A DNA stretch of 64,000 nucleotides from Pseudomonas oryzihabitans NBRC 102199 (GTDB lineage Bacteria > Pseudomonadota > Gammaproteobacteria > Pseudomonadales > Pseudomonadaceae): the NCBI RefSeq assembly GCF_000730625.1, contig NZ_BBIT01000002.1:248001-312000 (forward strand). The letters are read 5' to 3'. The translations under genes were made by a program, and so were the position numbers. Positions 23,920 to 51,028 of this stretch are shown here, piece after piece. The notes beneath the pieces are model-generated. The model saw nothing but the letters and a program-made list of their open reading frames with translations, was not told the DNA's origin and searched no databases. How positions within the stretch are numbered: position 1 is the stretch's first letter; each line of letters opens with the position of its first letter.

Positions 23920-25281
23920 TCAGCCGATGGGCAGTTCACCGGTCACGATGGCGGTGACGATGAACAGGCCAAACATCGGTAGCGACCACTTGAAGAATTC
24001 CTTCTGGTACTCGCCGAAGGTCATTTCCGTTCGATTCATCAGCAGGAACAGCCAGGCGACGGTGGGACTCGCATAACGCAGGGCCTGCCCCATGAATGAG
24101 GCCACGCCGATCTCGGTGGGGGTGATGCCGAACTGATAGGCGATGGGCGCCACCACCGGCAGGATGCCGAAGTAGTAGGCGTCCACCGGCAGCGCATAGC
24201 AGGCGATGGCGCCGAGGAAGGCGAAGGCCAGCGCCGTATGGCTGCCCATGGACTCGGGAATCAGCCCGGCGATGCTGGTAGCCACTGCGGCGGCCATGCC
24301 GCTGCCGTTGAAGATGCCGAGGAAGCAGCCCGCCGCCAGAATGATGGACGCGACGGCGATGGCGTCACCGCCATTGGCCGTGATGCGCTCGCGCTGTTCG
24401 GTGGCGCTGTAGTTCACGGCCAGGGCGATGGCGGTTCCCAGCATGAAAACGATGGCGCCACTGGCCCAGCCGGCCAGCAGCGTGACCAGCATGATCACGG
24501 TCAGCGCCAAGTTGAACAGGAAGAGGCGGGGGCGCTTGAATTCCCGGTCGTTTTCCTGGATGACAGTGACCATGTCCTCGATCTGCTGCGGCGTGACGAT
24601 GGCGCGTTCGCCGGGGATGTAGCCGAGCCGCGCGCGCTCTTTGCGCCCCATCAGATAGGCCATGCAGAACACATAGACGAAGGAAACCCCCAGGATCGGC
24701 AGGATCGCCACGAAGAGGGTATTCACCTCCACGTTCAGCACCGCGGCGGCGCGTGCCAGCGGGCCGCCCCAGGGCAGGCAGTTGCCCAGGCCACAGGGCA
24801 GGATGATGAGCATGGCCAGGTTCGACAGCTTCAGCCCCATCTGCTTGTACAGCGGCAGGAAGGCGCTGGTGATGATCAGGATGGTGGTAGTGCCATCGCC
24901 GTCCAGGGTCACCACCGAGGAGGTGAAGGCCGTCACCAGGATGATCTTCAGGGGATCACCGTTGGCCTTGCGGATGAGATAGGCACACAGCGGATCGAAC
25001 AGCCCCACGTTCATCATCAGGCTGAAGTAGAGGATGGCGAAGAGGATCATCACCGTGGGGTTGACTGTGCCCAGCGCCACCTTGCCGCTCTGGCTGTTGG
25101 AGTAGAACAGGCCTTCGCGAATCCAGGTGACCAGGGATTCGAAGGGGACGCCGCTGGCTATGCAGGCCAGGGCGCCGGCGGCCAGGGAGACCACGATCAA
25201 GCCGGTGAAGGGTGACAGCTTCTGCCGGATGACCAGGAACAGAAAGGCGATGATCAGCGCATAGCCGAGGAAGGTCAGCAT
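23920..25281 (-). CDS. CitMHS family citrate-type transporter
   Basis: A 453-residue polytopic membrane protein with about twelve helices. The LDGDGTTTILIITSAFLPLYK motif and GLGNCLPWGGPLARAAAVL match CitMHS transporters, which import metal-complexed citrate or related carboxylates with protons. I start at the ATG at 25281, preceded by GGGAG. It is the third gene after the DUF1932 dehydrogenase and RraA-like genes, so its substrate is probably a hydroxy- or oxo-acid processed by them. Confidence 0.85.
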   Translation of the reverse strand: MLTFLGYALIIAFLFLVIRQKLSPFTGLIVVSLAAGALACIASGVPFESLVTWIREGLFYSNSQSGKVALGTVNPTVMILFAILYFSLMMNVGLFDPLCAYLIRKANGDPLKIILVTAFTSSVVTLDGDGTTTILIITSAFLPLYKQMGLKLSNLAMLIILPCGLGNCLPWGGPLARAAAVLNVEVNTLFVAILPILGVSFVYVFCMAYLMGRKERARLGYIPGERAIVTPQQIEDMVTVIQENDREFKRPRLFLFNLALTVIMLVTLLAGWASGAIVFMLGTAIALAVNYSATEQRERITANGGDAIAVASIILAAGCFLGIFNGSGMAAAVATSIAGLIPESMGSHTALAFAFLGAIACYALPVDAYYFGILPVVAPIAYQFGITPTEIGVASFMGQALRYASPTVAWLFLLMNRTEMTFGEYQKEFFKWSLPMFGLFIVTAIVTGELPIG

Positions 25282-25367
25282 TCGGAGCAACTCCCAGTCT
25301 TATTGTTATCGGGACGCGAAACGAGTGGAGCGGGAGGAGTCCTGGTGGTGGACTCCTCGGGCGACGG

Positions 25368-26072
25368 TCAGCGCTTTTCCAATAGCGCGGTCACCCAGTC
25401 CGGCGCCAGCGGCGGCAGGGGCTCACCCTGGGCACGACAGCGGGCATAGTCGGCGATGATCGTGCGGCGCTGCGCCTCGTAGGCGTCCTTCTTCTCCGCG
25501 GCTTCGAGCACCTCCAGCAGGCGGGCGCGAGGCACCACGGTGATGCCGTCGTAGTCGCCGAAGACCAGATCACCCGGGGCGACCTCGACCCCCGCGCACT
25601 GGACCGGCACGTTGATCCGACCGGGGCCGTGCTTGGCCGGGCTGCGCTGCATGAAGCCCTTGGCGTAGATCGGGATGTCCAGCTCCGCCAGCGGGCGCCG
25701 GTCACGCACGCAGCCATCGACCACCAGACCCGCGAGACCCACCGCCTGGGCGGCCCCGGCCATTAGGTCGCCCAGATAGGCACGCTCCCGGTTCGCCTTG
25801 CCGGCCACCACCAGTACGTAGCCCGGTTGCCCCTGGTAGATGGCGACGTGGATGGGGAAGTTGTCGCCATCCTCGGTATCCACGGTGCAGGCAGTGCCCA
25901 GTAGGAGCTTGTCCGGGTCCAGCGGCAGCAGATCAGCGTCCATGCAGCCGCTGCGGGGGATGCCCAGGCTCTGCATGCCATCGCACAGCTGCGCCGGGCT
26001 GAGCGCGCGAAAGCGCTCGAGCAGCACGGCGGGAATGAGTTCGGGTAGCGGCAGGTACTGATCGGTGTTCAT
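25368..26072 (-). CDS. RraA-like aldolase / decarboxylase (module A)
   Basis: A 234-residue RraA-fold protein. Its conserved core is LSPAQLCDGMQSLGIPRSG, then GKANRERAYLGDLMAGAAQAVGLAGLVVDGCVRDRRPL with the substrate- and metal-binding Arg-Asp pair, and GDLVFGDYDGITVVPRARL. Members include 4-hydroxy-4-methyl-2-oxoglutarate aldolases and related oxaloacetate decarboxylases as well as the RNase E inhibitor RraA; catabolic context here favours an aldolase. Its start overlaps the end of the DUF1932 dehydrogenase gene by 4 bp. A second RraA-like gene is at 49523. Confidence 0.85.
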   Translation of the reverse strand: MNTDQYLPLPELIPAVLLERFRALSPAQLCDGMQSLGIPRSGCMDADLLPLDPDKLLLGTACTVDTEDGDNFPIHVAIYQGQPGYVLVVAGKANRERAYLGDLMAGAAQAVGLAGLVVDGCVRDRRPLAELDIPIYAKGFMQRSPAKHGPGRINVPVQCAGVEVAPGDLVFGDYDGITVVPRARLLEVLEAAEKKDAYEAQRRTIIADYARCRAQGEPLPPLAPDWVTALLEKR

Positions 26073-26965
26073 CGCGACGACTCCTGTTGGGCGCGGGTGA
26101 AATGGACGATGGCGGTGCGGTAGTCCAGCTCGCTACCCCCGGAGCCGAGTTCGGTGTGCCAGTCCTGCTGCGCCAGTTTCAGAAGTTGATCGCGGGTCGC
26201 GATGGACATGCTGGCATCAACGCCCACCGCCTGCAGGGTCGCGACGACGTCGTCCAGTTCGGCGGCGCGGCGTTTGGCATGGATGAGCGTGCGGGCGGTG
26301 AAGGTGTCGGCCAGTTGCGTCACCGTCTTGCCATCGAGGGACTCGCTGAGGGAGGCGACCAGGGTGTCGAGCACCCCGAAGCGCTCGGCCGCCTGAAAGG
26401 ATTCGAGGAATAGTTGCGGCAGCCCCTTCATCACCACGCTCTTGAGCATCTTGATGGCCGAGGCGGCGCCGGGCTCGGCCTCCAGGACGGTGAGGCGCAT
26501 GCCATAAGGGGTAAGGGCGGCGGCGAAGGCCGGCGCCGCGCTGCCGGCCAGCAGCATCGGGACGCGGTGATTGTTGCCCGGCACGGTGCCCATCACGGCG
26601 CAATCGCAAAAGCCAACACCGGCGGCCCGTGGCAGACGCTCTATGCGCTGCTTGACCCCGGGCGCCGCGGAATTCAGGTCCAGGTAGTCCTGGCCTGCGG
26701 TCAGCAGTGGCAGGATGCGCTCAGCCAGGGCCAGGGCGCTGCTTGCGCTGGTGAGGCAGAGTACGAAGCGTGCTGCCTTGCAGGCCTGCTCGGGGCTGTC
26801 GAACAGCTCCACCCCGGCCTGGGCAGCGCGCTGCCGGATCAGCGGGCCCACCTTGGCATCGTCGCGATAGGCGTCGTAGGCGCCCAGTTGCAGTCCTTCC
26901 GCAGCGCCCAGCCCGAGGGCCAGGTGATAGGCGGCCTCGCCGAAGCCTATGAAGACCATTTTCAT
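26069..26965 (-). CDS. NAD(P)-dependent dehydrogenase, 6PGDH-like with DUF1932 domain (module A)
   Basis: A 298-residue dehydrogenase. The N-terminal Rossmann domain begins KMVFIGFGEAAYHLALGLG with a Gly-rich loop; DYLDLNSAAPGVKQ and FCDCAVMGTVPGNN occupy the substrate-loop positions of beta-hydroxyacid dehydrogenases. The C-terminal helical domain, AASAIKMLKSVVMKGLPQLFLESFQAAERFGV, carries the conserved Lys and matches DUF1932. It probably oxidises a hydroxy acid whose product the RraA-like enzyme cleaves. First gene of an operon with a sigma-54 promoter 40 bp upstream. Confidence 0.85.
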   Translation of the reverse strand: MKMVFIGFGEAAYHLALGLGAAEGLQLGAYDAYRDDAKVGPLIRQRAAQAGVELFDSPEQACKAARFVLCLTSASSALALAERILPLLTAGQDYLDLNSAAPGVKQRIERLPRAAGVGFCDCAVMGTVPGNNHRVPMLLAGSAAPAFAAALTPYGMRLTVLEAEPGAASAIKMLKSVVMKGLPQLFLESFQAAERFGVLDTLVASLSESLDGKTVTQLADTFTARTLIHAKRRAAELDDVVATLQAVGVDASMSIATRDQLLKLAQQDWHTELGSGGSELDYRTAIVHFTRAQQESSR

Positions 26966-27004
26966 CGCCAGCTACCTTCTTGGTGTTGTTTGCACAGTAG
27001 CGGC

Positions 27005-27019
27005 GCAAGGCTTGTGCCA
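27005..27019 (-). promoter_or_regulatory. Sigma-54 promoter of the module A operon
   Basis: The complementary strand reads TGGCACAAGCCTTGC: a -24 TGGCAC element and a -12 TTGC element with five bases between, an exact match to the consensus core. It points toward the dehydrogenase gene, whose ATG is at 26965, so transcription would start near 26993. The divergent gene encodes a sigma-54 activator. TTGCAA-containing palindromes ATTGCAAT (27056-27063) and TTTGCAAA (27128-27135) upstream could be activator sites. Confidence 0.85.
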
Positions 27020-27177
27020 GATCGCTCAGTCGTGTCAGGCCGAACTGAAAAAATTATTGCAATCAAATGGATAGGAAGACGTCACGGTTTTCCGCCGAAC
27101 GCTGCGAAGCTAAAGTCATGGCGCGAGTTTGCAAAAGCTTTCAAGCTGGTGAAAGGCCTGAAACAAGAAGAACGTCA

Positions 27178-29142
27178 ATGAATGCCGAGCCAAACCCTTC
27201 CGTGTCCGCCGGTCTGTCCGGTCGAATCGCCATCATCGCACCCTCGCGCACCCTTACCCTGACCATGCAAGCGTTGCTCGCCCGGCGCGGGTTAGCGCTG
27301 CCCGTGGTGGAAGCGGTACAGGGCGACGCCCTGCGTACCGCCCAGCACCTGCTGGACCAGGGCGCCGTGGTCCTGATCAGCCGTGGCAAAACGGCCCACC
27401 GCCTGCGGGAGCACTTTCGCGTGCCGGTGGTGGAGCTCAGGCACACCTTCTTCGATTGCATCAATGCCTATCGGCAGGCGTTGCGCATCTCACCTCGGGT
27501 CGCCTTTCTTGCCACCTCGGACGGCTACGCGCGGATTCTCGTCAGATCCCACCCCTTCATGCCCGATGCGCACATCTGCGTGATAGATCCGCTCGCCAGC
27601 AGTCACGAGATCGAAGCCCGCCTGGACGAACTGCAGGCCCAGGGCATCGAGGTCACCATCGGCGGGCTGTCCTTCGCCGATGCCGTCACCGCCCGCGGTC
27701 TGCATTTCGTGATGTCCGATACCGATGGCGACGCTGCCGCCGAGGCCCTCGACGAAGCCCTGCATCTGCTCCGGATTGAGGATGAACGCCGCGGACAGCG
27801 CCAGGAACTGCAGCGTCGCTACGAGCTGATCCAGGCGATCCTCGATTGCGTGTCCGAAGGCATTTTCAGCGTCGACGGCGCGGGCCGGGTGACCCGTCTG
27901 AACCAGGTCGCGCAGTCCTACATGGGGGATCTCGCCTGTGGCGATCTCATCCTCGACCTGCCCATCGGGCGCTATTTCGAGCCGGCGTTGCAGCAGGGAA
28001 AGGCGGTTCGCGGAGCCTTGCTGGACATCGGCCGCCACTCCCTGACGCTGAGCATCGCTCCCGTCGAGCTGGATGACCAGGTCATCGGCGCGGTCGCCAC
28101 CCTGCAGAAGCAGACGGACATCAGGACCTTGGAGCGCAAGATGCGGCGAGCGATCGCCAGCCAGCACCTGGCGCGGCGCACCTTCGCCGATATCGTCGGC
28201 AGCAGTCCCGCCCTGCAGCGGGCGAAGCGGCTGGCCCAGGCCTACGCCAGCGCTGACAGCACCCTGATCATCGAAGGCGAGACCGGTACCGGCAAGGAAC
28301 TTTTCGCCCAGAGCATCCACAATGCCTCGGCGCGCTGCCATGGCCCCTTCGTGGCCATCAATTGCGCTGCCTTCGCCCCCGGGGTGCTGGAAAGCGAGCT
28401 GTTCGGCTACGTCCGGGGCGCCTTCACCGGGGCGTCCAGCGAGGGCCGTATCGGCGTCTTCGAGCTGGCCCATACCGGTACGCTGTTCCTCGACGAGATC
28501 AGCGAAACCTCCGCGGATATCCAGCTCAAACTGCTGCGTACCCTGCAGGAGCGGCAAGTCGTCCGCATCGGCGACGACAAGGTCACGCCGGTGGACATCC
28601 GCATCATCACGGCCAGCAACAAACCCCTGCTTGAGCAGGTCGCCAGGGGGTTGTTCCGGGAAGATTTCTACTACCGGCTCTGCGTCCTGCGCCTGACGCT
28701 GCCACCGTTGCGCGAGCGCCGTGACGACCTGCCCGAATTGCTGGACCGGCTCCTGGCCGAGCCCTCCGCAGTGACCCGGGCGCTCACCCAGACCTTGCTG
28801 ACTCGACTCGCCGACTACCCGTGGCCAGGCAACGTGCGCCAGCTCGCCAATCTGGTCGAGCGCCTGGGCGTCATGCTCTCCTGCGACCTACCCGCCGACG
28901 AGTTGCTCGACGAGCTGCTCGGCGACCTGCCCCATCCCGAGGTGTCCCCGCCGGCAGCACGGGCGGCCGCGTTACCCGACGAGCGCGCGATCCTGCATGC
29001 GGCCCTCAGCGCCGTGGGGGGTAATCGCAAGCAGGCCGCGGCCCGGCTCGGCATCAGCACGGCGACCCTCTGGCGGCGGATGCGGCGCTATCTGGATGAG
29101 GATCCCGCCTGCTTCAATGGCAGTCGCTATGGCGAACGCTGA
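27178..29142 (+). CDS. PrpR-type sigma-54-dependent activator
   Basis: A 654-residue activator. A PrpR_N sensor domain (about residues 15-195, GRIAIIAPSRTLTLTM to LHFVMSDTDGDAA) is followed by a PAS-like domain (about 215-315), the AAA+ domain with Walker A GETGTGKE near 367, the sigma-54 contact loop GAFTGA near 414 and LFLDEI, and a Fis-type helix-turn-helix ending NRKQAAARLGISTATLWRRMRRYL. I use the ATG at 27178 after AAGAAGAAC. PrpR proteins sense small organic acids. The divergent operon with its sigma-54 promoter is the evident target. Confidence 0.93.
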   Translation: MNAEPNPSVSAGLSGRIAIIAPSRTLTLTMQALLARRGLALPVVEAVQGDALRTAQHLLDQGAVVLISRGKTAHRLREHFRVPVVELRHTFFDCINAYRQALRISPRVAFLATSDGYARILVRSHPFMPDAHICVIDPLASSHEIEARLDELQAQGIEVTIGGLSFADAVTARGLHFVMSDTDGDAAAEALDEALHLLRIEDERRGQRQELQRRYELIQAILDCVSEGIFSVDGAGRVTRLNQVAQSYMGDLACGDLILDLPIGRYFEPALQQGKAVRGALLDIGRHSLTLSIAPVELDDQVIGAVATLQKQTDIRTLERKMRRAIASQHLARRTFADIVGSSPALQRAKRLAQAYASADSTLIIEGETGTGKELFAQSIHNASARCHGPFVAINCAAFAPGVLESELFGYVRGAFTGASSEGRIGVFELAHTGTLFLDEISETSADIQLKLLRTLQERQVVRIGDDKVTPVDIRIITASNKPLLEQVARGLFREDFYYRLCVLRLTLPPLRERRDDLPELLDRLLAEPSAVTRALTQTLLTRLADYPWPGNVRQLANLVERLGVMLSCDLPADELLDELLGDLPHPEVSPPAARAAALPDERAILHAALSAVGGNRKQAAARLGISTATLWRRMRRYLDEDPACFNGSRYGER

Positions 29143-29183
29143 GGGGATACCGACGCTGTGCGCGCTAGGTATCCGAGCCTGCA

Positions 29184-29207
29184 GAGGATGGTCGCATCAC
29201 CATCCTC
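29184..29207. terminator. Hairpin between convergent genes
   Basis: GAGGATGGT (29184-29192) and ACCATCCTC (29199-29207) form a perfect 9-bp stem with a six-base loop. A second, weaker stem CCGTTC/GAACGG lies at 29219-29237. They sit between the convergent activator and MFS genes and are candidate terminators, though no T-run follows. Confidence 0.45.
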
Positions 29208-29369
29208 GGCAGCTGACACCGTTCACGTAGCGAACGGGGATGGCGATGGCTGCCGCCATCAAGAGATGCGGGTATTGCGTATCCTGACGTCCTTCTGGCA
29301 CATGTCTCCCATATTCTTGCCACTTCGATTCAGCGTTCACAGGGGCAAGCTATACCTGCGAATGGCACT

Positions 29370-30593
29370 TCATTCCTTTTTGGCATTGAGATGGCTTTCC
29401 ACTGCACGGAACGTCAGCAACAGCAGACCGGCGATGCCGAGCGTGAGGGGGGCGCCTAGGGCGCTGGCGAGCAAGCCGGCGAGCAGGCCACCCACCGCCT
29501 CGAAGCCGAAGCGCATGGCGATGTACAGGGCGATCACGCGGCCACGCAGCGCTGCCGGGGCATCGCCCTGCAACAGCATGTTGGTGCTGACGTTATTGGC
29601 GGTGATCCCGAAGCCCAGCAGGGCCAGCAACAGTAGCGCGAAGGTAAGCGGCATCTGGAACGCCAGCAGGCACAGGGCCAGGGCGCAGCACAACTCGGCG
29701 ATGAAGATCACGCGCCTCAGGCGGTGCAAGGCGCCGGCGAGGGCGAGCATGATCGTGGCGACGAAGGCACCCGCACCGGCGGCTCCCCATAGCCAACCCA
29801 GCATCCGGGCGTCGCCGAGGTAGAGCGTCTTGGCCAGTACCGGCAGCAAGACGCTGTAGTTGGAGGCCAGCAGGTTGACGGCGACCACCCCCAGCATCAG
29901 GCGCCGGACCGAGAAGGTATTCCAGACGTAGCCCAGGCCTTCACGAAACATCTGACTGGTCGAACCGCTGGCTTTGGCGGTCGCGCTGCCCTGAACCTTC
30001 GTCAGGCCCAGCAGCAAGGTGGCAAAGGCGATCGCCGTGATCAGGAAGCACAGCGCTTCGCTACTGGCGGCGATCAGGGCGCCGGCCAACGGCGGGCCGA
30101 TGAAGCGCGCGGCGTTGATCAGCATGGCATTGAGGGCGAGGGCGTTGGGCAAATCGCTGGCGTCGGCCACGAAGCTACCGATGAGTGCCTGTCTGAGCGG
30201 TGTTTCCAGGGCATTCAGCAAGCCCAGGAATAGAGCCATGGCGATCAGGACCGGTGCGTCGATCCAGCCTTGCCAGCTCAAGAGCGCGAGCAACAGCGAT
30301 TGGATGGCCAGCAGCGACTGCGCCGCGATCAGGCAACGGCGTTTGTCGTGGCGGTCGATCCAGGCGCCGGCGATCGGACCTACCAGCAGTTGCGGAGCGA
30401 GCGTCAGAAAGGTGATGACGCCCAGCAGGGTGGCGGAAGCGGTGACGTGATAGGCCATCCACGACAGCGCAACCTGTTGCACCCATTTGCCCAGGGTCGA
30501 CACGCCCTGGCAGGCAAAATAGATCTGGAAGTCACGATGGGCGAGCGCCCGTACAGCGGTGGGCCAACGGGAGGGCTGAGCAGGTTTCGCCAA
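29370..30593 (-). CDS. MFS transporter, EntS/DHA3-like
   Basis: A 407-residue protein with about twelve membrane helices. The N-terminal FQIYFACQGVSTLGKWVQQVALSWMAYHVTASATLLGVITFLTLAPQLLVGPIAGAWIDRHDKRR pattern, including the DRxxKRR loop after TM2, is typical of the MFS_3 group that includes the enterobactin exporter EntS and macrolide exporters. Export of a small molecule is likely; the substrate is unknown. It is a single gene with no regulator beside it. Confidence 0.8.
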   Translation of the reverse strand: MAKPAQPSRWPTAVRALAHRDFQIYFACQGVSTLGKWVQQVALSWMAYHVTASATLLGVITFLTLAPQLLVGPIAGAWIDRHDKRRCLIAAQSLLAIQSLLLALLSWQGWIDAPVLIAMALFLGLLNALETPLRQALIGSFVADASDLPNALALNAMLINAARFIGPPLAGALIAASSEALCFLITAIAFATLLLGLTKVQGSATAKASGSTSQMFREGLGYVWNTFSVRRLMLGVVAVNLLASNYSVLLPVLAKTLYLGDARMLGWLWGAAGAGAFVATIMLALAGALHRLRRVIFIAELCCALALCLLAFQMPLTFALLLLALLGFGITANNVSTNMLLQGDAPAALRGRVIALYIAMRFGFEAVGGLLAGLLASALGAPLTLGIAGLLLLTFRAVESHLNAKKE

Positions 30594-30975
30594 GAAGGCT
30601 GTCTCCAGATTGACTCGGCAGGCAGCGGCCGGTCCGGCAGGTCAAGTGCGGCACCGCGACAACCAGCACGGCGATGCTTGGGACAAGAGCGGCTACCCCT
30701 GGCGCTCATGCCATACAGGGCGGGCAGTGCGCAGAACCCGTCATCAGGCCGGCCGTTTCAAGTTGCGGGGTAACAACCAGCTATGAGCTGGCTTTTTAGA
30801 ATGTCATTTCGTTTTGTTGTTTGCAATGGCCAGCCCGCCAGCCCGAGCAGCCGGGCTGGCAGAAGTTGGCGGGACGAAGGTCTCCTCGTCCGGCCCTAGC
30901 GGCCGGCACGGCGCCGTTGTCGAGCATGGGGTGAACAACCAAGCCGGCCGGAAGTAGGACCGACGGCCTTCAGTC
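30594..30975. other. Intergenic region with two hairpins
   Basis: About 380 bp between the MFS start and the EthD-like stop. CCAGCT-ATG-AGCTGG at 30777-30791 is followed on the plus strand by CTTTTT, the form of an intrinsic terminator. GCCAGCCCG (30837-30845) and CGGGCTGGC (30852-30860) make a second 9-bp stem. The promoter of the MFS gene should lie nearest 30594. No gene is supported. Confidence 0.5.
30777..30797 (+). terminator. Intrinsic-type terminator
   Basis: A perfect 6-bp stem with a three-base loop is followed by CTTTTT on the plus strand. No plus-strand gene ends here, so it may stop antisense transcription. The stem may also serve the EthD-like gene on the minus strand, where its T content is poor. 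Confidence 0.5.
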
Positions 30976-31884
30976 CTAGCGTGGGGTCGATGCCGAGGAG
31001 GGCGCATCGTTTTCCGGTAACGCGCCGTGACGAAGCAGATGCACGACTTCGTCCTGCGTCTGGTTGACCGCCCCGAGGCGTTCGATCAGTTCGGCCGCGC
31101 GACTGCCGCGCAGGCCGGCGGTGGTGAGCTGGCCGGCATGGACGTAGGTGTAAACCCCGGACACGGCGAATGCCTTAAGGCAGGCGATGTGCCGCGCCTG
31201 TTCGGGCAGGCTGCTGCGAAAGGCTTCGCTGGCGAAGAAACGTCGGCGTTCCAGTGGCGAGGCGAAGACGATCTCCACCATCGACAGCGCCGCGCGGATG
31301 GCATCGGCCCGGTGCGCCACGTCGGGCGACGGAGGATGCTGACCGTCGTTGACGAAGGGCACGCACGGGTGGACGCGCACTTTCAGGACGGCCGCCTGGG
31401 TGGCCAGCCAGGGGCCCAGGTGGCTCAGCAGATAAGTGTTCAGGTCCTCGAGGATGTCGCGGGGATGCAGATGGAGCTGCAGGCGATCCAGCTGGTCGGG
31501 ACCGTTGTGCTGCTCGTCCGCCAGCGTGTTCTTGAAGGCATGCGAGCCATAGGGCAGATCATAGGCAAGCGTCTCGGCGAACATGTTCTGCTCGTCGCTG
31601 AACAGCACGGGGCCGGCGGCCTGGAAGGTACGCTGATGCGCCTCGTCAGCGAAGCCGATCTCGACCATTCCATCCAGTTCGTAGTCGGGAATCTCGCGGA
31701 TGCCCTCGGCCAGCGGCCACAGATGGGCGTCCTGCTCTCGGTCGAAGTGGTATTGCACGTAGTGACCGAGCCCCGGCAGACGGGCGCACAGGGGACCGTG
31801 GACATCACGCCAGTATTGCGCGAACAGGTCATTGGGCACGCGTTCGCGACGCTTGACCGTGGTGTAGCTGTTGAGAGTGATCAT
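30976..31884 (-). CDS. EthD-domain protein
   Basis: A 302-residue soluble protein. The N-terminal 110 residues (ITLNSYTTVKRRERVPNDLFAQYWRDVHGPLCARLPGLGHYVQYHF) are a dimeric alpha/beta-barrel domain of the EthD type, with the conserved W-x-D-x-H-G-P pattern; the C-terminal part repeats features of that fold (VRVHPCVPFVNDG and later). EthD-like proteins are found in degradation pathways for ethers, aromatics and other secondary compounds and in polyketide cyclases. The ATG at 31884 follows AGGA. It lies downstream of the SDR gene on the same strand, 168 bp away. Confidence 0.75.
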   Translation of the reverse strand: MITLNSYTTVKRRERVPNDLFAQYWRDVHGPLCARLPGLGHYVQYHFDREQDAHLWPLAEGIREIPDYELDGMVEIGFADEAHQRTFQAAGPVLFSDEQNMFAETLAYDLPYGSHAFKNTLADEQHNGPDQLDRLQLHLHPRDILEDLNTYLLSHLGPWLATQAAVLKVRVHPCVPFVNDGQHPPSPDVAHRADAIRAALSMVEIVFASPLERRRFFASEAFRSSLPEQARHIACLKAFAVSGVYTYVHAGQLTTAGLRGSRAAELIERLGAVNQTQDEVVHLLRHGALPENDAPSSASTPR

Positions 31885-32052
31885 GGGGGCGCATTCCTGA
31901 AGGCGAGACTTGGAAAGTGGACCCCTGATGTTGGCGATAAGCTCCGGACGTTCGCGAGCGAGATCCCGGGCCATGGTGCGTACCTACCCGCCCGGACCCG
32001 GACGCGCTCGATCCGTGGAGCGCGTCCTGAACATCCAGGCGCGAGACGCTTG

Positions 32053-43925: not shown

Positions 43926-44630
43926 ATGAGCCTTCCGCTACGCCTGTACGAACTGACCGGTGCCGACGACAGCTGCCGCTTCAGCCCCTATTGCTGGCGC
44001 ATACGCCTGGCGCTGGCGCACAAGGGGCTGCCGGTCGAGACCATTGCCTGGCGCTTTCACGAGAAGGAGGCCATCGCCGCTTCGGGGCAGGGCAAGGTGC
44101 CGGTGCTGGTGGATGGCGAGCAGTGGGTGAGCGACAGCTGGGCCATCGCCGAGTACCTGGATCGCCAATACCCCGAGCGGCCCTCGCTGCTGGGCGATGC
44201 TTCGCTCAAGGCCACGACGCGCTTCATCAACCAATGGGTCGCGGACAGTGTGCATCCGGCGCTGGCGCGGGTGATCCTGCCCGACGTCCATGCGGTGCTG
44301 GATGAAGCCGACCAAGACTATTTCAAGCGGACCCGCGAAGCGGCGTTTGGCGTCTCGCTGGAGGCCCTGGCTGGGCAGCGCGAGACTTCGTTGCAGGCCT
44401 TCCGCGAAGTCCTGAAGCCCCTGCGCAGCACCCTGGCCCTGCAGGATTACCTGGCGGGTGAAGCCCCGGCCTATGCCGATCACATCGTCTTCGGCGCCTT
44501 TCAGTGGGCGCGGATCGTCAGCACCCAACCCTTGCTGGCCCAGGACGACCCCATTACGGCCTGGTGTGGGCGGATGCTCGACGCCTACAACGGACTGGCG
44601 CGGCAGACACCCGCGGCAGCCGAGCGCTAG
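43926..44630 (+). CDS. Glutathione S-transferase family protein
   Basis: A 234-residue GST. The thioredoxin-like N-terminal domain is LRLYELTGADDSCRFSPYCWRIRLALAHKGLPVETIAW, with GKVPVLVDGEQWVSDSWAIAEYLD forming the glutathione-binding PVL/DS element; the C-terminal helical domain runs from residue 90. The residue facing glutathione could be Ser or Cys in SCRFSPYCWR. It probably acts in detoxification or dehalogenation; no pathway partner is next to it. Confidence 0.85.
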   Translation: MSLPLRLYELTGADDSCRFSPYCWRIRLALAHKGLPVETIAWRFHEKEAIAASGQGKVPVLVDGEQWVSDSWAIAEYLDRQYPERPSLLGDASLKATTRFINQWVADSVHPALARVILPDVHAVLDEADQDYFKRTREAAFGVSLEALAGQRETSLQAFREVLKPLRSTLALQDYLAGEAPAYADHIVFGAFQWARIVSTQPLLAQDDPITAWCGRMLDAYNGLARQTPAAAER

Positions 44631-44647
44631 CGAATCGGGCCGGCGGA

Positions 44648-44671
44648 TCGCTGCTGGCTAGCCAGCAGCGA
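44648..44671. terminator. 24-bp perfect palindrome between convergent genes
   Basis: TCGCTGCTGGC-TA-GCCAGCAGCGA is a complete palindrome placed 18 bp beyond the GST stop and 18 bp from the convergent rlhA stop. Position suggests a shared bidirectional terminator; T-runs are absent. Confidence 0.5.
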
Positions 44672-44688
44672 CGTCATGCCCTCAGGGC

Positions 44689-46704
44689 TCAGTGACTGTA
44701 CCCGGTCGGCTTGTTGCGGATGGTCTTGAGCAGGTCTTCCGGGCTGATGCTGGCGAGCGCCTTGGCCGCGGCCTGGCTGCCCGGCAGCGGCAGGTCGAGG
44801 ATGTGGCCCTTCATCTTGCCCACCACGTGCATCTCGCAGGGCTTGCAGTCGAATTTCAGGGTCAGCACCTCGTCGCCGTGGACCAGTTGCATCGGCGCGA
44901 CCTTGGTGCGCACGCCGGTGACGCCCTTGGCCTGCTTGGGACAGAGGTTGAAGGAGAAGCGCAGGCAGTGCTTGGTGATCATCACCGGCACCTCGCCAGG
45001 CTCTTCATGGGCCTCGTAGGCCGCGTCGATCAGTTGTACGCCATGGCGATGATAGAAGTCGCGGGCCTTCTGGTTGTAGACGTTGTAGAGAAACGACAGG
45101 TGCGACTCGGGATACACCGGCGGGGGACAGCTCTCGGCCTTGCGGCTGCCGCGCGGGTGGGCGGCGACGCGGGCGGCGGTCAGCCGCTCGATAGCTTCGC
45201 GGCGCAGCGCCTTCAGTTGCGAATTGGGCACGAAGAAGGCCTGGGGTGCATCCAGGCTCACGTCCAGGGCGTGGTATTCGGTGGTGCCCAACTGGGTCAG
45301 CAGATCGCGCAGGCCATCCAGCGCCTGCTCCGGCTTGTTGGCCACACCGAAGGGACCGTCTAGGGCAACCGAGACACTGACGCCTTCTTCGCTGGTGACG
45401 GTCAGCTCTAGCCGCTGCTCGCGCAGCTCGGCCAGCCAGTGCACGCCGATGCGGCGCTCGGCGCTGGTCTTGAGCAGGGCCTGCTGCCAGTTGTGGTCCA
45501 GGTTGCGCGACAGCGGATGATTCGGGCGCAGGCGGAACAGCCCCTCGGGCATCTCGTTGGGTTCGACGCGATAGCGATAGCGCTTCTGGCCGTCCTCCTC
45601 GAATTCGCCCTTGAGCTCGGCGACGTTGGCGCGAAAGCCCACCACCTCGCGCTTGACCAGCACATTGAGGCCGTCGCCGTTGGACAGCGGCTCCTCGGTG
45701 ACGGCAATGAAGTCGCGCTTGCCGACCTTTTCCACCTGACCCACTGGCAGACCGGTAAAGGTCGGCGAGTCGAAGGCGCCGATGTCCACCTTGCGGTCGG
45801 TGACGAAATAGTCGGTGCTGCCGCGGTGGAAGGTCTTGTCCGGATCGGGCACGAAGAAGTGCGCCGTGCGACCGCTGGAGGCGCGCGCCAGGTCGGTGCG
45901 GTCTTCTAGGATCTCGTCGAGCAGCTGGCGGTAGTAGGCGGTGATGTTCTTCACATAGCCCATGTCCTTGTAGCGGCCCTCGATCTTGAAGGAGCGCACG
46001 CCGGCCTCGACCAGGGCGCGCAGGTTGGCGCTCTGGTTGTTGTCCTTCATCGACAGCAGGTGCTTCTCGAAGGCCACCACCCGACCCTGGTCATCCTTCA
46101 GGGTGTAGGGCAGGCGGCAGGCCTGGGAGCAGTCGCCGCGGTTGGCGCTGCGACCGGTCTGGGCGTGGGAGATGTTGCACTGGCCGGAGAAGGCCACGCA
46201 CAGGGCGCCATGGATGAAGAATTCGATGGCCGCGTCGGTCTCGGCGGCGATGGCCGAAATCTCCTGCAGATTCAGCTCGCGCGCCAGCACCAGCTGGGAG
46301 AAGCCGGCCTGGTCGAGAAACTTGGCCCGCGCCAGGGTGCGGATGTCGGTCTGGGTGCTGGCATGCAGCTCGATCGGCGGGATGTCCAGTTCCAGCACGC
46401 CCAGGTCCTGCACGATCAGCGCATCCACGCCCGCGTCGTACAGCTGGTGGATCAGCGTGCGCGCCGGCTCCAGCTCGTCGTCGTGCAGGATGGTGTTGAT
46501 CGTGGTGAACACCCGCGCATGGTAGCGGCGGGCGAATTTCACCAGCTCGGCGATCTCGCTGACCTCGTTGCAGGCATTGTGCCGCGCACCAAAGCTCGGC
46601 CCGCCGATGTAGATGGCATCGGCCCCATGCAGGATGGCCTCCCGGGCGATACCGACATCGCGGGCAGGGCTGAGCAATTCCAGATGGTGCTTGGGCAGGG
46701 ACAT
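44689..46704 (-). CDS. rlhA: RlhA, 23S rRNA C2501 hydroxylation protein (U32 peptidase family)
   Basis: A 671-residue U32-family protein with the size and domain order of E. coli RlhA (YdcP). The N-terminal TIM-barrel starts HLELLSPARDVGIAREAILHGADAIYIGGPSFGARHNA; the cysteine cluster FIHGALCVAFSGQCNISHAQTGRSANRGDCSQACRLPY is the likely iron-sulfur site, with NNQSANLRALVEAGVRSFKIEGR following. The C-terminal half includes DUF3656. RlhA makes 5-hydroxycytidine at C2501 of 23S rRNA using prephenate-derived chemistry in E. coli. A single gene, convergent with the GST gene. Confidence 0.85.
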   Translation of the reverse strand: MSLPKHHLELLSPARDVGIAREAILHGADAIYIGGPSFGARHNACNEVSEIAELVKFARRYHARVFTTINTILHDDELEPARTLIHQLYDAGVDALIVQDLGVLELDIPPIELHASTQTDIRTLARAKFLDQAGFSQLVLARELNLQEISAIAAETDAAIEFFIHGALCVAFSGQCNISHAQTGRSANRGDCSQACRLPYTLKDDQGRVVAFEKHLLSMKDNNQSANLRALVEAGVRSFKIEGRYKDMGYVKNITAYYRQLLDEILEDRTDLARASSGRTAHFFVPDPDKTFHRGSTDYFVTDRKVDIGAFDSPTFTGLPVGQVEKVGKRDFIAVTEEPLSNGDGLNVLVKREVVGFRANVAELKGEFEEDGQKRYRYRVEPNEMPEGLFRLRPNHPLSRNLDHNWQQALLKTSAERRIGVHWLAELREQRLELTVTSEEGVSVSVALDGPFGVANKPEQALDGLRDLLTQLGTTEYHALDVSLDAPQAFFVPNSQLKALRREAIERLTAARVAAHPRGSRKAESCPPPVYPESHLSFLYNVYNQKARDFYHRHGVQLIDAAYEAHEEPGEVPVMITKHCLRFSFNLCPKQAKGVTGVRTKVAPMQLVHGDEVLTLKFDCKPCEMHVVGKMKGHILDLPLPGSQAAAKALASISPEDLLKTIRNKPTGYSH

Positions 46705-47064
46705 GGCGTTTCTTCTCGATCAGGCGTGGCACGGCAAGGCGCGCATTGTAGCGGGCGAGGGGGAGGAGGGCACGCCTGGGGTGCTGGGTGGTTGGGCCAG
46801 TCCATCAACCGGGGGGGAGGATTCACAGACCCGCCGGCTGACCGACAGTCATCCGTGTTTCCGACCCTTATTCCTGCCCGGGGAGTGCAGTGATCGCGAC
46901 CCGCAAGCCGGCTGCCAAGGGCTTAAGCATCGCTATCCCGCCGACTGGGGGCGCTGCTCATTCCTAAGGGGAATGAATGCCTGTGCCTCTTTATCGCTTT
47001 TTTCCATTAATGGGCCGTCGTAAAACCTCCGTCACCTTTAATAACCATAAAAATCGGAGGACTC
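46705..47064. other. Control region of the MFS gene
   Basis: About 360 bp between rlhA and the MFS gene. Near its end are the dyad TCATTCC-TAAGG-GGAATGA (46958-46976) and the 44-bp element shared with the region at 49429. A GGAGG ribosome-binding site precedes the MFS ATG. The first 200 bp show nothing notable. Confidence 0.5.
46959..47002 (+). promoter_or_regulatory. Shared promoter element, copy 1 (MFS gene)
   Basis: This 44-bp block aligns without gaps to 49429-49472 with 33 identical bases, including CATTCCT at the start, ATGAATG in the middle and ATCGCTTTTT at the end. Both copies keep a CATTC-N11-GAATG dyad, a form expected for a LysR-type regulator. It ends 62 bp before the MFS start. 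Confidence 0.65.
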
Positions 47065-48444
47065 ATGACCGAATCCCTGGCTTCAAAGCCGGCACCGGCA
47101 CCGGCAGTGGCGGAACGGGCAGCGCTACAGACGCGGTCCAGGACCCGCTATCGCTGGGTGGTACTGGCGGTCATCGTGGTCGTGTACATGCTCGCTGCAG
47201 CCGATCGGGCCAATATCGGGATCGCCTTGCCCTATATCCAGAAGGAGTTCGGCGCGACCAATGCCGAGGTGGGTCTGCTGGTCAGTGCCTTCTTCCTGTT
47301 CTACTCGCTCGGTCAGATACCGGCGGGCTTTCTGCTGAGTAAGGTCAGCGTGCGCGTGGTCGCCCCCGCGGCGATTGGCCTGACGTCGCTCGTGACGCTG
47401 CTGATCGGCACCTCCCACAGCATCGGTATGCTCAAGATCTATCGCTCGGCGCTGGGCGTCGCAGAAGCCGCCTTGCCCCTGTCGATGTTGAGCACCATCA
47501 ACCGCTGGTTTCCGCCGCGGGAAAAGGGCACGGCTACCGGCGCCTTCCTGTCCGCCGCCAAGATGGGCGCGGTGATAGCACCGCCATTGGGGGCAGCGCT
47601 GATTCTGCTCGATGGCTGGCGCACCATGTTCATCGCCTTCGCCCTGCCAGGCGTGCTGCTCGCCTTGCTGTGGTGGTGGCTCGTCCCCAATGATCCGAGA
47701 GCCTGCAAGCAGGTGAGTGACGCCGAAGCCGAACACATCGAAGACCAGACGACCGCGCACAGCGAGTCGGTCCGTAAGCACCGGGATTTCGACAGGCTCG
47801 ACCGCGCGCTGCGCTATGAGCGCACCCCCCTCCTCGATACGTCACGCTCCGTGTTCAGGTCCTGGAACATCTGGGGCTGTGGATTGGGCTACCTGCTGAT
47901 GACCGGAGTAGTGAACGTGCTCCTGGCCTGGCTCCCCAAGTACCTGGGCGAGGTAAAGCACTTCGAACTGATGCAGGTCGGCTTCGTGGCGTCCTTGCCC
48001 TTTGTTGGCGGGGTGCTCGGCAATATCGTCGGCGGCTGGCTGTCGGATCGAATCCTGGACCGCCGTCGCAAACCGACCATGATGATCAGCGCGGTAGCGA
48101 CCTGCGTGATGATGGTCGCTCTGGTTTACGCACCCAATGGGCTGCTCGCGGTCAGTCTGTTGCTGTTCGGTACCGGCTTTCTGCTCAACATCGGCTACTC
48201 GTCGTTCTCGGTCTATTCGATGGGACTGACGACCAGAACGACCTATCCGGTGGCTGCATCCGTGGTCAACAGCGCGGGCCAGGCGGGGGGCGCCATGGCG
48301 CCGCTGATCACCGGCTTCCTGCTGGATAGCTACAGCTGGACGGCGGTGTTCATCTTCCTCGGCGTCTGCTCCCTGGCCGCCCTGGCCTTCGTGTTGACCA
48401 TTTCCGAACCGGCTACCGCGCCGGTCGAGGCCTCTGCTGGCTAG
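47065..48444 (+). CDS. MFS transporter, anion:cation symporter family
   Basis: A 459-residue permease with twelve helices after a 35-residue polar leader. The TM1 region VVLAVIVVVYMLAAADRANIGIALPYIQKEFGATNAEVGLL and the DRANIG pattern are typical of the ACS family that imports hexuronates, glucarate, tartrate, phthalate and other organic anions. The central loop (about residues 215-265) is long and charged. It opens the module that also includes the LysR gene and the RraA/DUF1932 pair, and its promoter shares an element with theirs. Confidence 0.88.
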   Translation: MTESLASKPAPAPAVAERAALQTRSRTRYRWVVLAVIVVVYMLAAADRANIGIALPYIQKEFGATNAEVGLLVSAFFLFYSLGQIPAGFLLSKVSVRVVAPAAIGLTSLVTLLIGTSHSIGMLKIYRSALGVAEAALPLSMLSTINRWFPPREKGTATGAFLSAAKMGAVIAPPLGAALILLDGWRTMFIAFALPGVLLALLWWWLVPNDPRACKQVSDAEAEHIEDQTTAHSESVRKHRDFDRLDRALRYERTPLLDTSRSVFRSWNIWGCGLGYLLMTGVVNVLLAWLPKYLGEVKHFELMQVGFVASLPFVGGVLGNIVGGWLSDRILDRRRKPTMMISAVATCVMMVALVYAPNGLLAVSLLLFGTGFLLNIGYSSFSVYSMGLTTRTTYPVAASVVNSAGQAGGAMAPLITGFLLDSYSWTAVFIFLGVCSLAALAFVLTISEPATAPVEASAG

Positions 48445-48525
48445 GGGGCGGAACCTTGGTCCAGGATCACGGCCGTCTGCTGCGCTGTCGCTCTGGTAGC
48501 CGCAGGACGGTCTGGCGATAGCGGG

Positions 48526-49431
48526 CTAACGCTGCAACTGTTTCGTGAAGTCGCAGAGTTGCGTCGCCAGCGTGGCGATCTCGGCGACGAAGGTCGAGGG
48601 CCGATCATTGCGGTACATCGCCATGTAGGGAACCGGTGGCAGCTCGGGATCGGTCTCGACGATGACGAGTTTGCCTTCGTCCACCAGCGGGCGGAAACAT
48701 TCGCGTGGCAGGTAGGTGACGCCCAGGCCCGCCGAGGCCAGACCGAGCATGGCGGTGAGGCTGTCGGAGGAGAGGATCCTGGGCAGCTCTATTCCGCGTG
48801 CATGCAGCCAGCGATTTACGAACAGGCCAGATCCTGACTTCTTGCCCTGCATCAGCATGGGATACTTGGCCAGCTCGGCCAGGCCCACCACGCCTGAACT
48901 CCGGACCAGTCCCGGCGCGGCCATCCAGGCATTCTCCACGGTGGCGAGGGGTACGCTGGTGACCTCGGGCGCCGTGAAGGTGTCCGGTATCACGATGAGG
49001 TCGACCAGATCGTCCATCAGCCGCTCGTGCAGATTGCGACTCATGTCGACTTCCGGCTCCACGGTAAGCCCGGGGAAGTCGGCAACCAGGCGCGTGACCA
49101 GGCGCGGTAGCCAGGTCCAGGCAGTAAGTTCGGTAACGCCCAGTCGCAGACGGCGGGTGGTGACGTGCTTGCCGTCCTTGAGCGAGGTGATGCGCTCGTT
49201 CAGATCGAGCATCTCGCGCGCAATGACCAGCAGCTCCTCGCCCTCGGCGGTGAAGCGGGCACCCCGCTGCGAGCGATCGAACAGCTGCAGGCCGGTGGAG
49301 GACTCCAGCTCCTGCACCCGTTTCGAGATGGCTGACTGGGTGGTGTTGAGATGCTCGGCGGCCCTTTCGAAGGTACCCAGACGTTCGATCCAGTGCAGCG
49401 CCAGCAACTGGCGTAGTGTGACCAAGGGCAT
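48526..49431 (-). CDS. LysR family regulator (module B)
   Basis: A 301-residue LysR protein. The helix-turn-helix is LRQLLALHWIERLGTFERAAEHLNTTQSAISKRVQELESSTGLQLFDRSQRGARFTAEG; the effector domain starts near residue 90 (RRLRLGVTELTAWTWLPRLV). It lies between the MFS gene and the RraA-like gene and is divergent from the latter by 91 bp. The shared promoter element begins at its own start codon, so it likely regulates itself and both flanking transcripts. Confidence 0.9.
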   Translation of the reverse strand: MPLVTLRQLLALHWIERLGTFERAAEHLNTTQSAISKRVQELESSTGLQLFDRSQRGARFTAEGEELLVIAREMLDLNERITSLKDGKHVTTRRLRLGVTELTAWTWLPRLVTRLVADFPGLTVEPEVDMSRNLHERLMDDLVDLIVIPDTFTAPEVTSVPLATVENAWMAAPGLVRSSGVVGLAELAKYPMLMQGKKSGSGLFVNRWLHARGIELPRILSSDSLTAMLGLASAGLGVTYLPRECFRPLVDEGKLVIVETDPELPPVPYMAMYRNDRPSTFVAEIATLATQLCDFTKQLQR

Positions 49432-49472
49432 TCCTCCAGGGCATGAATGGCCATACCTTAATATCGCTTTTT
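49429..49472 (+). promoter_or_regulatory. Shared promoter element, copy 2 (RraA-like gene)
   Basis: The counterpart of 46959-47002, with 33 of 44 bases identical and the same CATTC-N11-GAATG dyad (49429-49449) and ATCGCTTTTT end. It overlaps the LysR start codon and ends 50 bp before the RraA-like start, suiting control of both divergent genes. Confidence 0.65.
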
Positions 49473-49522
49473 CTATTTGGCCACTGGCCTATCCTCGACG
49501 TTATCCAACAAGAGGAGCCCTT

Positions 49523-50143
49523 ATGAACGTCAACGCTTCCAGTCCGACCTCGCTGGTCGAAGCCTTCGCCCGTACCTCCACCTCGATCATCAGCGACTGT
49601 CTCGACCGGCTTCCAGGCGCTCCGCTGCGGCCCTTCCATCGGATCGAAGGCACCATGGCCGGCCTTGCGCTCACCGTCAAAGTACCCGCCGGCGACAACC
49701 GGGCGATCCACCAGGCGCTGGAGCTCCTCGTCCCCGGCCAGGTGCTGGTGGTCGATGGCGGTGGCGACCTGAGTCGCGCCCTGATGGGCGACATCATGGC
49801 GGCTATCGCGGAAAAACGCGGTGCCGCGGGCGTCGTCGTCGATGGGGCGATTCGCGACCTGGCGACGATCAGCAAGGGCAGCTTCCCCATCTTCGCTCGC
49901 GGGGGCTATCACCGTGGCCCCTACAAGAACGGTCCGGGGGAGATCAACGTGCCGGTGAGCATTGGCGACATGATCGTTTCACCAGGAGACCTCGTCGTGG
50001 GTGACCATGACGGCATCGTCGCCTTTCCCCTGGCCCAGGCGGCGGAGCTGCTCGACCGTTGCCTGGCGACCGAGCGCAAGGAAGCGGAAATGCTCGCGCA
50101 GATTGCCGCGGGAACCTACCGGGGCGCCTACGCGGCCCACTGA
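49523..50143 (+). CDS. RraA-like aldolase / decarboxylase (module B)
   Basis: A 206-residue RraA-fold protein. Its core has SIISDCLDRLPGAPLRPFHR, GQVLVVDGGGDLSRALMGDIMAAIAEKRGAAGVVVDGAIRDLATI (with the Arg-Asp pair) and GDMIVSPGDLVVGDHDGIVAFPLAQA. As in the module A copy, aldol cleavage or decarboxylation of a hydroxy- or oxo-dicarboxylate is the likely reaction. The ATG at 49523 follows GAGGAG; longer frames into the LysR gene are spurious. The DUF1932 dehydrogenase gene begins 15 bp downstream. Confidence 0.85.
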   Translation: MNVNASSPTSLVEAFARTSTSIISDCLDRLPGAPLRPFHRIEGTMAGLALTVKVPAGDNRAIHQALELLVPGQVLVVDGGGDLSRALMGDIMAAIAEKRGAAGVVVDGAIRDLATISKGSFPIFARGGYHRGPYKNGPGEINVPVSIGDMIVSPGDLVVGDHDGIVAFPLAQAAELLDRCLATERKEAEMLAQIAAGTYRGAYAAH

Positions 50144-50158
50144 TTACGGAACAAGCAA

Positions 50159-51028
50159 ATGAAACTAGCGATTATCGGCGCAGGCGAAGTGGGCCTTACC
50201 TACGCGCACCCCTGGGCGGCAGCAGGCCACGAAATCCTCTTGTGTGACCTCAAGCCTTCACCCAGGGCCCAGGCCTTCGCGAAAGAGCATGACGTGGCTC
50301 TCGTCACCTCGATGGAGGATGGGGTAGCCGATTGCGATGTCGTCGTCTCCTGCGTATTCGGCACTGTCTCGCTGCCAGTCGCCGAGCAGGCGCTCGCCCT
50401 TATGCGGACGGGTGCGCTGTTCATCGACATGACCACCGCGGATCCGGAGCAGATCAGGCGAGCCGCGGCCATCGCGGCCGAGCGCTCCATTCCCTATGTG
50501 GACGTGGCCATCCTGGGGGCCATCGCCTTGACGCACGCGAAAACCAATCTGCTGGCCGCCGGTATCGGCCTGGAGCGCGCGGTCGTCCTCTTTGCCGAAG
50601 CCGGCGCCCCGCTCAAGCCCGTCGAGAGCGGCGCCGCGGGCGATGCAGCCGCCCTGAAGATCTTACGCAGCGTGTTCACCAAGGGACTGGAAGCCTTGAC
50701 CATCGAGTGCTTCATGGCGGCCGAGAAGCAGGGTGTCACGGAAAAGCTTCATGACGCCCTGAGCGATATCGACCAGGCCTCATTAAGAGACTTTCTCGGC
50801 GCCCTCATTAGGACGCATGTCGTGCATGCCCCGCGCCGTCTCAAGGAAGTGGAAGAGGCCGAACGCCAACTGCGGGCCGCCGAGCTACCGGTGGCGGTGC
50901 TGCCTGGGGTGAGGGAGGTATTCGCTCGGACATCCGCGCAGCTGGCACACGCGCCTATCGACACGGCATCGCCGAGTCTTGGCCAGGCCTTCGATTGGCT
51001 GTTCAAGGCCAATGGCGTGGTGAGGTAG
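50159..51028 (+). CDS. NAD(P)-dependent dehydrogenase, 6PGDH-like with DUF1932 domain (module B)
   Basis: A 289-residue dehydrogenase related to the module A enzyme. The Rossmann motif is KLAIIGAGEVGLTYAHPWAAAGHEILLCDLKP, where the acidic end of the second strand (Asp) favours NAD. FIDMTTADPEQIRR and YVDVAILGAIALTHAKTN follow, and DAAALKILRSVFTKGLEALTIECFMAAEKQGV is the DUF1932 helix with the conserved Lys. It should act with the RraA-like protein, encoded 15 bp upstream, on a compound imported by the MFS permease. Confidence 0.85.
   Translation: MKLAIIGAGEVGLTYAHPWAAAGHEILLCDLKPSPRAQAFAKEHDVALVTSMEDGVADCDVVVSCVFGTVSLPVAEQALALMRTGALFIDMTTADPEQIRRAAAIAAERSIPYVDVAILGAIALTHAKTNLLAAGIGLERAVVLFAEAGAPLKPVESGAAGDAAALKILRSVFTKGLEALTIECFMAAEKQGVTEKLHDALSDIDQASLRDFLGALIRTHVVHAPRRLKEVEEAERQLRAAELPVAVLPGVREVFARTSAQLAHAPIDTASPSLGQAFDWLFKANGVVR

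Follow-up and report, generated by a model that had tools for sequence, protein, structure and literature searches.

The RraA-like family includes the 4-hydroxy-4-methyl-2-oxoglutarate/4-carboxy-4-hydroxy-2-oxoadipate (HMG/CHA) aldolase of Pseudomonas putida F1 (PDB 3NOJ), for which the published study (PMC5065237) ties conserved residues, by mutation or structure, to catalysis, metal binding or phosphate activation. Specifically, that study connects Arg-123, Asp-124 and Glu-199 with enolate stabilisation and metal binding, and describes the substitution H75A as having little effect (PMC5065237). DUF1932 is a domain of unknown function, and a strong tie to one enzyme family makes its function testable. 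Here we describe two gene modules, A and B, in a 64,000-nucleotide stretch of Pseudomonas oryzihabitans NBRC 102199 (contig NZ_BBIT01000002.1, positions 248,001 to 312,000; hereafter "the window"), each of which places an RraA-like gene beside a gene for a DUF1932 dehydrogenase of the 6-phosphogluconate dehydrogenase (6PGDH) type. The pairing recurs across distant bacteria and points to an undescribed route of hydroxy acid catabolism. In the open-access full texts covered by our search, we found neither a function for DUF1932 nor a pathway with the RraA–DUF1932 pair, and the papers containing the word DUF1932 concerned unrelated subjects; a description elsewhere is possible, the subscription literature lying largely outside the search. 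The outcome is consistent with an earlier, sequence-only reading of the window, which knew of no described pathway with this pair.

Module A spans 23920–29142, with DH1, RraA1 and CitMHS in this order on the minus strand and the activator divergent; module B spans 47065–51028. Their features are:

23920..25290, minus strand: CitMHS-family citrate-type H+ symporter (PF03600, 99.5 bits; TIGR00784, 322.7 bits, cut-off 259.7)
25368..26072, minus strand: RraA1, by its residues a putative RraA/HMG-CHA-type class II pyruvate aldolase (PF03737, 148.6 bits, cut-off 24.5)
26069..26965, minus strand: DH1, DUF1932 6PGDH-like NAD-binding dehydrogenase (PF09130, 52 bits, cut-off 25; NAD_binding_2, PF03446)
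27005..27019, minus strand: sigma-54 (−24/−12) promoter-like site TGGCAC-N5-TTGC, upstream of DH1 (exact pattern match)
27067..29142, plus strand: PrpR_N/PAS/sigma-54 activator, divergent (PF06506, PF00158, PF02954)
47065..48444, plus strand: major facilitator superfamily (MFS) permease (MFS_1, PF07690, 251.9 bits)
48526..49431, minus strand: LysR-type regulator (PF00126, PF03466)
49523..50143, plus strand: RraA2, putative RraA/HMG-CHA-type aldolase (PF03737, 152.1 bits)
50159..51028, plus strand: DH2, DUF1932 dehydrogenase (PF09130, 33.4 bits, cut-off 25; PF03446, 54.7 bits)

Protein families in the window were assigned with Pfam and NCBIfam profiles, scores being read against the family cut-offs. 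The matches agree with the sequence-only reading on both pairs and their companions, namely RraA and DUF1932 at 25368–26965 with a CitMHS permease and a sigma-54 activator, and at 49523–51028 with an MFS permease and a LysR protein; DH1 and DH2 both pass the DUF1932 gathering score of 25 bits (52 and 33.4). DH1 and RraA1 overlap by 4 bases, and RraA2 and DH2 are 15 bases apart (the ATG start of RraA2 at 49523 is taken from the translation; the profile scan used the longer open reading frame (ORF) 48716–50143). The best NCBIfam match of the module B permease, which we take to be of the anion/cation symporter type, is a D-galactonate transporter subfamily (202.2 bits against a cut-off of 395). 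As that reading had also held, the gene order differs, with the dehydrogenase first in module A and the aldolase first in module B, and the pairs are no recent tandem copy: identity is only 25% between DH1 and DH2 and 41% between RraA1 and RraA2. We reject a recent tandem duplication on these identities and on the different order, transporter and regulator; judged by their divergence, modules A and B are old paralogues.

Proximity of DUF1932 to RraA extends well beyond this genome. In a phylum-wide sample, at least 41 of 61 DUF1932 genes lie within 10 kb of an RraA gene and at least 39 of 61 within 5 kb, the 10-kb pairing being found in at least 40 of 52 genomes and at least 31 of 40 genera; without the window's own genome, the count is at least 39 of 59 genes. 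The figure of 41 used 141 listed RraA rows, and a hand-picked part of the listed RraA rows gave the same value. By comparison, in the same 52 genomes, 1 of 150 listed genes for the sister dehydrogenase domain PF14833 lies within 10 kb of RraA (Fisher p 2.5e-27 among the matches listed, the genomes not being independent), so the pairing is not due to chance. Such a neighbourhood comparison had been suggested by the sequence-only reading, and rare co-occurrence was not seen. DUF1932 is itself uncommon: with the window's genome counted each time, it is present in 4 of the 59 genomes sampled at family level, 6 of the 321 at class level and 52 of the 398 at phylum level. Across the 34 contigs of the window's genome there are two DUF1932 matches, one per module, and four RraA matches. 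RraA is sparse in the genus (42 matches across 13 genomes of about 5 Mb each), and direct adjacency of both DUF1932 genes to RraA is therefore far beyond chance. A scan of genome contigs, from which we kept the best 80 of 502 confirmed relatives, a non-random set ranked by likeness to DH1, found RraA in the stored stretch at 47 of the 80 loci and within 300 bases at 23.

Many other DUF1932 genes stand with RraA in operons for protocatechuate 4,5-cleavage or gallate degradation. A set of 127 DUF1932 loci, which mixes several sources and holds some duplicates of one genome (e.g. L024 and L042), divides into loci with RraA only (30), RraA and LigB (37), RraA and other oxalomesaconate-pathway genes (17), such pathway genes without RraA (2) and none of these in the stored stretch, which is sometimes short (41). 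RraA and DUF1932 thus stand alongside lig or oxalomesaconate-pathway genes in 54 of 127 loci, and the RraA there is a CHA aldolase wherever it was scored or annotated. Families neighbouring DUF1932 include LigB, LigA, two amidohydrolases, PrpF, PIG-L (whose counterpart is annotated galB in Pantoea), GFO/IDH, TctC, DctM and ABC transporter parts of the branched-chain amino acid type. The interpretation given by the sequence-only reading stands in part: the cassettes recur, but the pair is not confined to them, since 54 of the 84 loci with both genes also hold LigB or oxalomesaconate-pathway genes. A quick DUF1932 tree places modules A and B in different branches, both of them shared with other stand-alone cassettes and distinct from a large lig/gal branch. 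A third type of DUF1932 gene lies beside an SDF symporter in a gallate-like cluster of genome G022 (L030), whose RraA passes both CHA-aldolase cut-offs (PRK09262 and ligK_PcmE); the gene map of G066 has the same arrangement (L032), and the G005 relative has no listed RraA within 10 kb. No ring-cleavage dioxygenase (LigAB/GalA) is found among the window genes scanned, and the genome's sole PF02900 match, a protein of 258 aa, lies on a different contig; with no such dioxygenase, membership of the modules in a gallate or protocatechuate-4,5 cluster of this genome was rejected. The genome holds two PrpF matches elsewhere. That DUF1932 might replace the isomerase PrpF in lig operons was suggested by some Burkholderiales operons without PrpF, but this idea was dropped, as others contain the two together.

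Both modules recur as compact cassettes. In the genus sample, 10 of 13 genomes carry DUF1932, with cassette A in G000, G022 and G066 and cassette B in G000, G022, G064 and G047. Each cassette consists of four genes, because, distant or non-adjacent matches aside, only CitMHS, RraA, DUF1932 and the activator in an 18-kb stretch of G066, and only MFS, LysR, RraA and DUF1932 in the G047 stretch, are orthologous to the window's module regions. RraA lies directly behind DUF1932 in all 13 loci whose dehydrogenase is 54–95% identical to DH1 (L042–L054); ten of these from Pseudomonas and one from a Spirochaetaceae metagenome-assembled genome also carry a PrpR-type activator and CitMHS, the activator of L050 reading as two ORFs. 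The pair has CitMHS as a neighbour in L052, L054 and 12 Pseudomonas loci (counting the window), and a Lachnoclostridium locus holds a LysR-like gene, DUF1932, RraA and CitMHS. A Desulfovibrio cassette (L053:8827–15789) comprises, in one direction, a LysR-like gene, DUF1932, RraA, a two-subunit hydro-lyase of the fumarase/tartrate-dehydratase family (assigned at family level only, below NCBIfam cut-offs), TctA and TctC, so that TctA/TctC occupies the transporter slot instead of CitMHS; both transporter families, CitMHS and Tct, take their names from the transport of citrate or tricarboxylates.

Several further cassettes are plasmid-borne. On a Pseudomonas syringae plasmid predicted to be conjugative, module B occurs in the same order with a dehydrogenase 77% identical. 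A Rhizobium plasmid carries LysR, two permease ORFs (SLC13-type permease), DUF1932 and RraA, and Priestia plasmids carry RraA followed by DUF1932, with a divergent citrate symporter and an RpiR regulator. Directly behind DUF1932 in the Priestia cassettes lies a protein of about 360–370 residues (L175:5959–7071, L176:5936–7018), which in L176 has no Pfam match at 1e-8. On a Nitratireductor plasmid (L180:2608–9675), a Tct transporter, DUF1932, a D-2-hydroxyacid dehydrogenase family gene, RraA and an alpha-hydroxy acid oxidase stand side by side.

Module A also has a conserved regulatory signal. The motif TGGCAC-N5-TTGC corresponds to the sigma-54 −24/−12 pattern and is exact in 12 of the 12 Pseudomonas loci examined (window, L025 and L042–L051), lying 54 bases before the dehydrogenase start in the window and 55–57 bases before it in the others; the Spirochaetaceae locus has no exact match. 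Given its six occurrences in the whole window, both strands counted, a 170-base stretch on a single strand should contain about 0.01 matches by chance. The activator scores below the PrpR equivalog TIGR02329 (350.4 bits against a cut-off of 499.2). In the propionate system, the signal to which PrpR responds is the tricarboxylate 2-methylcitrate.

The RraA-like proteins retain the residues of an aldolase. In particular, RraA1 and RraA2 keep Asn71, His75, Arg123, Asp124, Lys147 and Glu199 of 3NOJ, as well as R40, and Arg123, Asp124 and Glu199 are kept in both proteins and in all 19 aligned rows; Arg195 is Lys in RraA1. RraA2 falls in the NF004850 subfamily (262.8 bits, cut-off 231), the name of which is hypothetical protein. 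Both miss the ligK_PcmE cut-off of 304.5 bits (RraA1, 139.9; RraA2, 114.8). By residues and scores, RraA1 and RraA2 are aldolase-like and are not filed as CHA aldolases.

The dehydrogenases share a distinctive set of residues. G7 and G9 of the Rossmann GxGxxA/G motif and K172 are kept in all 11 aligned rows, and K172, which we take to be catalytic, aligns with a lysine of the window's 3-hydroxyisobutyrate dehydrogenase (HIBADH)-type protein (54012–54857). Of 127 rows, 118 carry the whole of an eight-residue signature (K172, K/R175, S176, K180, H229, R232, R233 and E236), DH1 having K175 and DH2 the same signature with R175. Among the 86 rows with RraA or lig/oxalomesaconate neighbours, seven positions are kept in all 86 and S176 in 85. 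The nine exceptions are six basal-branch rows, L039 (A for H229), L059 and L173, the last differing only by S176T and having RraA 3.5 kb away. This cationic signature would suit a substrate with several carboxylates. The basal branch (L033, L034, L035, L155, L038 and L169) has Y/F175, A176, K229 and W/F233 and no RraA in the stored stretch, and in L033–L035 its DUF1932 gene adjoins an ABC transporter gene. In L039 (L039:10032–11828), a phosphonopyruvate hydrolase (408.5 bits, cut-off 374.4), which like RraA would cleave a 3-substituted pyruvate, is followed after 72 bases by the DUF1932 ORF; this pairing may mark oxidation of 3-phosphonolactate. As a general partner of DUF1932, phosphonopyruvate hydrolase was rejected, only 1 of 350 class genomes, the L039 case, having a match over the cut-off.

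We consider it about an even chance that the two modules are self-contained cassettes, each serving the catabolism of a single imported hydroxy acid, in which oxidation by the DUF1932 enzyme is followed by cleavage by RraA to pyruvate and a second acid. The permease (CitMHS in module A, MFS in module B) would import a hydroxy acid with two or three carboxylates and the general structure HOOC-CHOH-CH2-X; the DUF1932 enzyme would then oxidise the alpha-hydroxyl with NAD+ to give a 2-oxo acid, the step order, cofactor and substrate being our assignments; and RraA, as a metal-dependent retro-aldolase, would split the bond next to the pyruvate unit, releasing pyruvate and the rest. The second product would be oxaloacetate or a second pyruvate, or CO2 if X is a carboxylate. 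In module A, the PrpR_N/sigma-54 protein would sense the acid or a product and fire the −24/−12 promoter at 27005–27019. The hydroxyl required by the aldolase would come from hydratases in the lig/gal operons and, in Desulfovibrio, from the hydro-lyase. The leading substrate candidates are acids resembling 4-hydroxyhomocitrate and 2,4-dihydroxy-4-methylglutarate, the 2-hydroxy (reduced) counterparts of CHA and HMG, and module A would probably prefer a tricarboxylate; the tricarboxylate-type transporters of cassette A, and those that replace them elsewhere, suggest a citrate-like substrate for that module. We count the 2-hydroxyacid dehydrogenase family gene and the alpha-hydroxy acid oxidase beside the Nitratireductor pair in favour of this explanation. 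For the contexts in which a partner is known, our reading of the common logic is that DUF1932 makes or consumes a 3-substituted pyruvate from which its partner (RraA or, once, phosphonopyruvate hydrolase) strips the substituent, leaving pyruvate. The view of the sequence-only reading that the pair works as a two-step unit finds strong support in the neighbourhood counts and in small cassettes found in several phyla; its proposed chemistry, oxidation and then aldol cleavage or decarboxylation, would fit the conserved residues.

Several observations weigh against oxidation followed by aldol cleavage. For 20 of the 61 DUF1932 genes sampled, no RraA is listed within 10 kb, and 33 of the best 80 of 502 loci have none in the stored stretch, some stretches being short. 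The quick tree is partly unsure, with 35 of 122 inner branches weak and several long branches that may be falsely joined. In G065 (L029:9295–10284), a dehydrogenase of the module B type matches only from residue 81 on, and the gene map shows no module RraA, LysR or MFS nearby. RraA1 and RraA2 miss the 179-bit cut-off of PRK09262 (CHA aldolase/oxaloacetate decarboxylase), with 147.6 and 123.5 bits, and scores below the CHA-aldolase cut-offs may indicate another substrate. Pairing with phosphonopyruvate hydrolase was seen just once, and two annotated plasmid copies have an aminotransferase before the hydrolase instead. Moreover, most members of the 6PGDH/HIBADH superfamily use beta-hydroxy acids as substrates, which favours a malate-like substrate.

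That preference of the superfamily leads to the strongest rival, a split malic-enzyme-like unit in which DUF1932 would oxidise a malate- or isocitrate-like beta-hydroxy acid (a substituted malate, tartrate or an isocitrate isomer) and RraA would decarboxylate the resulting beta-keto acid, releasing CO2. Relatives of RraA named CHA aldolase/oxaloacetate decarboxylase, the tricarboxylate-type CitMHS and Tct carriers, and the Desulfovibrio hydro-lyase, as far as its family-level assignment goes, fit this rival too; the RraA partner in lig/gal operons, however, is the CHA aldolase, and cells already decarboxylate common malate-like acids with one-step enzymes. We regard the split unit as unlikely. 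Reversal of the two steps, in which RraA would cleave an imported 4-hydroxy-2-oxo acid and DUF1932 would afterwards reduce or oxidise a fragment (such as an aldehyde acid or oxaloacetate), has a smaller probability still. Within the pair, RraA comes first in module B and Priestia, and semialdehydes are substrates of some members of the superfamily (judged by NCBIfam names, weak matches), but DUF1932 precedes RraA in cassette A, and the known RraA aldolase products, pyruvate and oxaloacetate, require no dedicated reductase. It is very improbable that DUF1932 is an NAD-dependent racemase or epimerase giving an isomer that RraA accepts: the study PMC12366243 reports that PbfF, a dehydrogenase-annotated gene of phosphonate clusters, proved to be an NAD-dependent racemase, but also places PbfF in another family, pfam02826, and nothing in our data points to an isomer problem. 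Finally, that RraA1 and RraA2 are RNase E regulators standing beside a dehydrogenase incidentally is scarcely credible and was rejected, for although E. coli RraA belongs to the same family, both proteins miss the equivalog cut-offs (PRK09372, 136 bits, with 86.9 for RraA1 and 93.4 for RraA2; TIGR02998, 241.25 bits, with 39.8 and 44.2) and keep the aldolase residues, and their family lies near at least 41 of 61 DUF1932 genes.

Returning to the oxidation-and-cleavage cassette, a broader and more doubtful extension is that DUF1932 founds a so far uncharacterised class of 2-hydroxyacid dehydrogenases, NAD-dependent and turning 3-substituted lactates into 3-substituted pyruvates, coupled to a substituent-stripping lyase (usually RraA, once phosphonopyruvate hydrolase), with modules A and B as independently assembled mobile routes; we offer it tentatively. 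If true, hydroxylated di- and tricarboxylates would be bacterial carbon sources not yet recognised, and DUF1932 would catalyse a hitherto overlooked step feeding the lignin-derived gallate and protocatechuate-4,5 pathways.

Beside module B, a second small acid or sugar-acid cassette (window 51096–56270) holds a LysR gene, a split transketolase, the HIBADH-type dehydrogenase and an MFS permease. The transketolase is encoded by two genes (52128–53000 and 52942–54003), and the HIBADH-type protein (54012–54857) comes nearest to L-threonate dehydrogenase (226.9 of 350 bits).

Compared with known systems, the window dehydrogenases match the sequences of the DUF1932 structures 3QSG, 4EZB and 1I36 over most of their length; these were deposited under uncharacterised or generic names, with no substrate in the molecule names. 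With the beta-hydroxyacid dehydrogenases (HIBADH, tartronate semialdehyde reductase and L-threonate dehydrogenase) they share the Rossmann domain and the aligned lysine; unlike those enzymes, they have the DUF1932 C-terminal domain in place of NAD_binding_11 and K-x-x-(K/R)-S in place of K-x-x-N, and do not keep the PVTGG motif. RraA1 and RraA2 share the fold family and the catalytic and metal-binding residues of the HMG/CHA aldolase (3NOJ), but are only about 30–38% identical to the RraA rows of lig/gal operons, differ at positions 144–145 (S-P in RraA1 and G-P in RraA2 against G144-T145 in 3NOJ), and, unlike the HMG/CHA aldolase in its context, have no dioxygenase, isomerase or hydratase beside them. 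At the level of the operon, the window modules differ from the protocatechuate 4,5-cleavage and gallate operons in standing without an adjoining LigAB or gallate dioxygenase, and resemble them in the presence of RraA and, in many Proteobacteria, of DUF1932 too.

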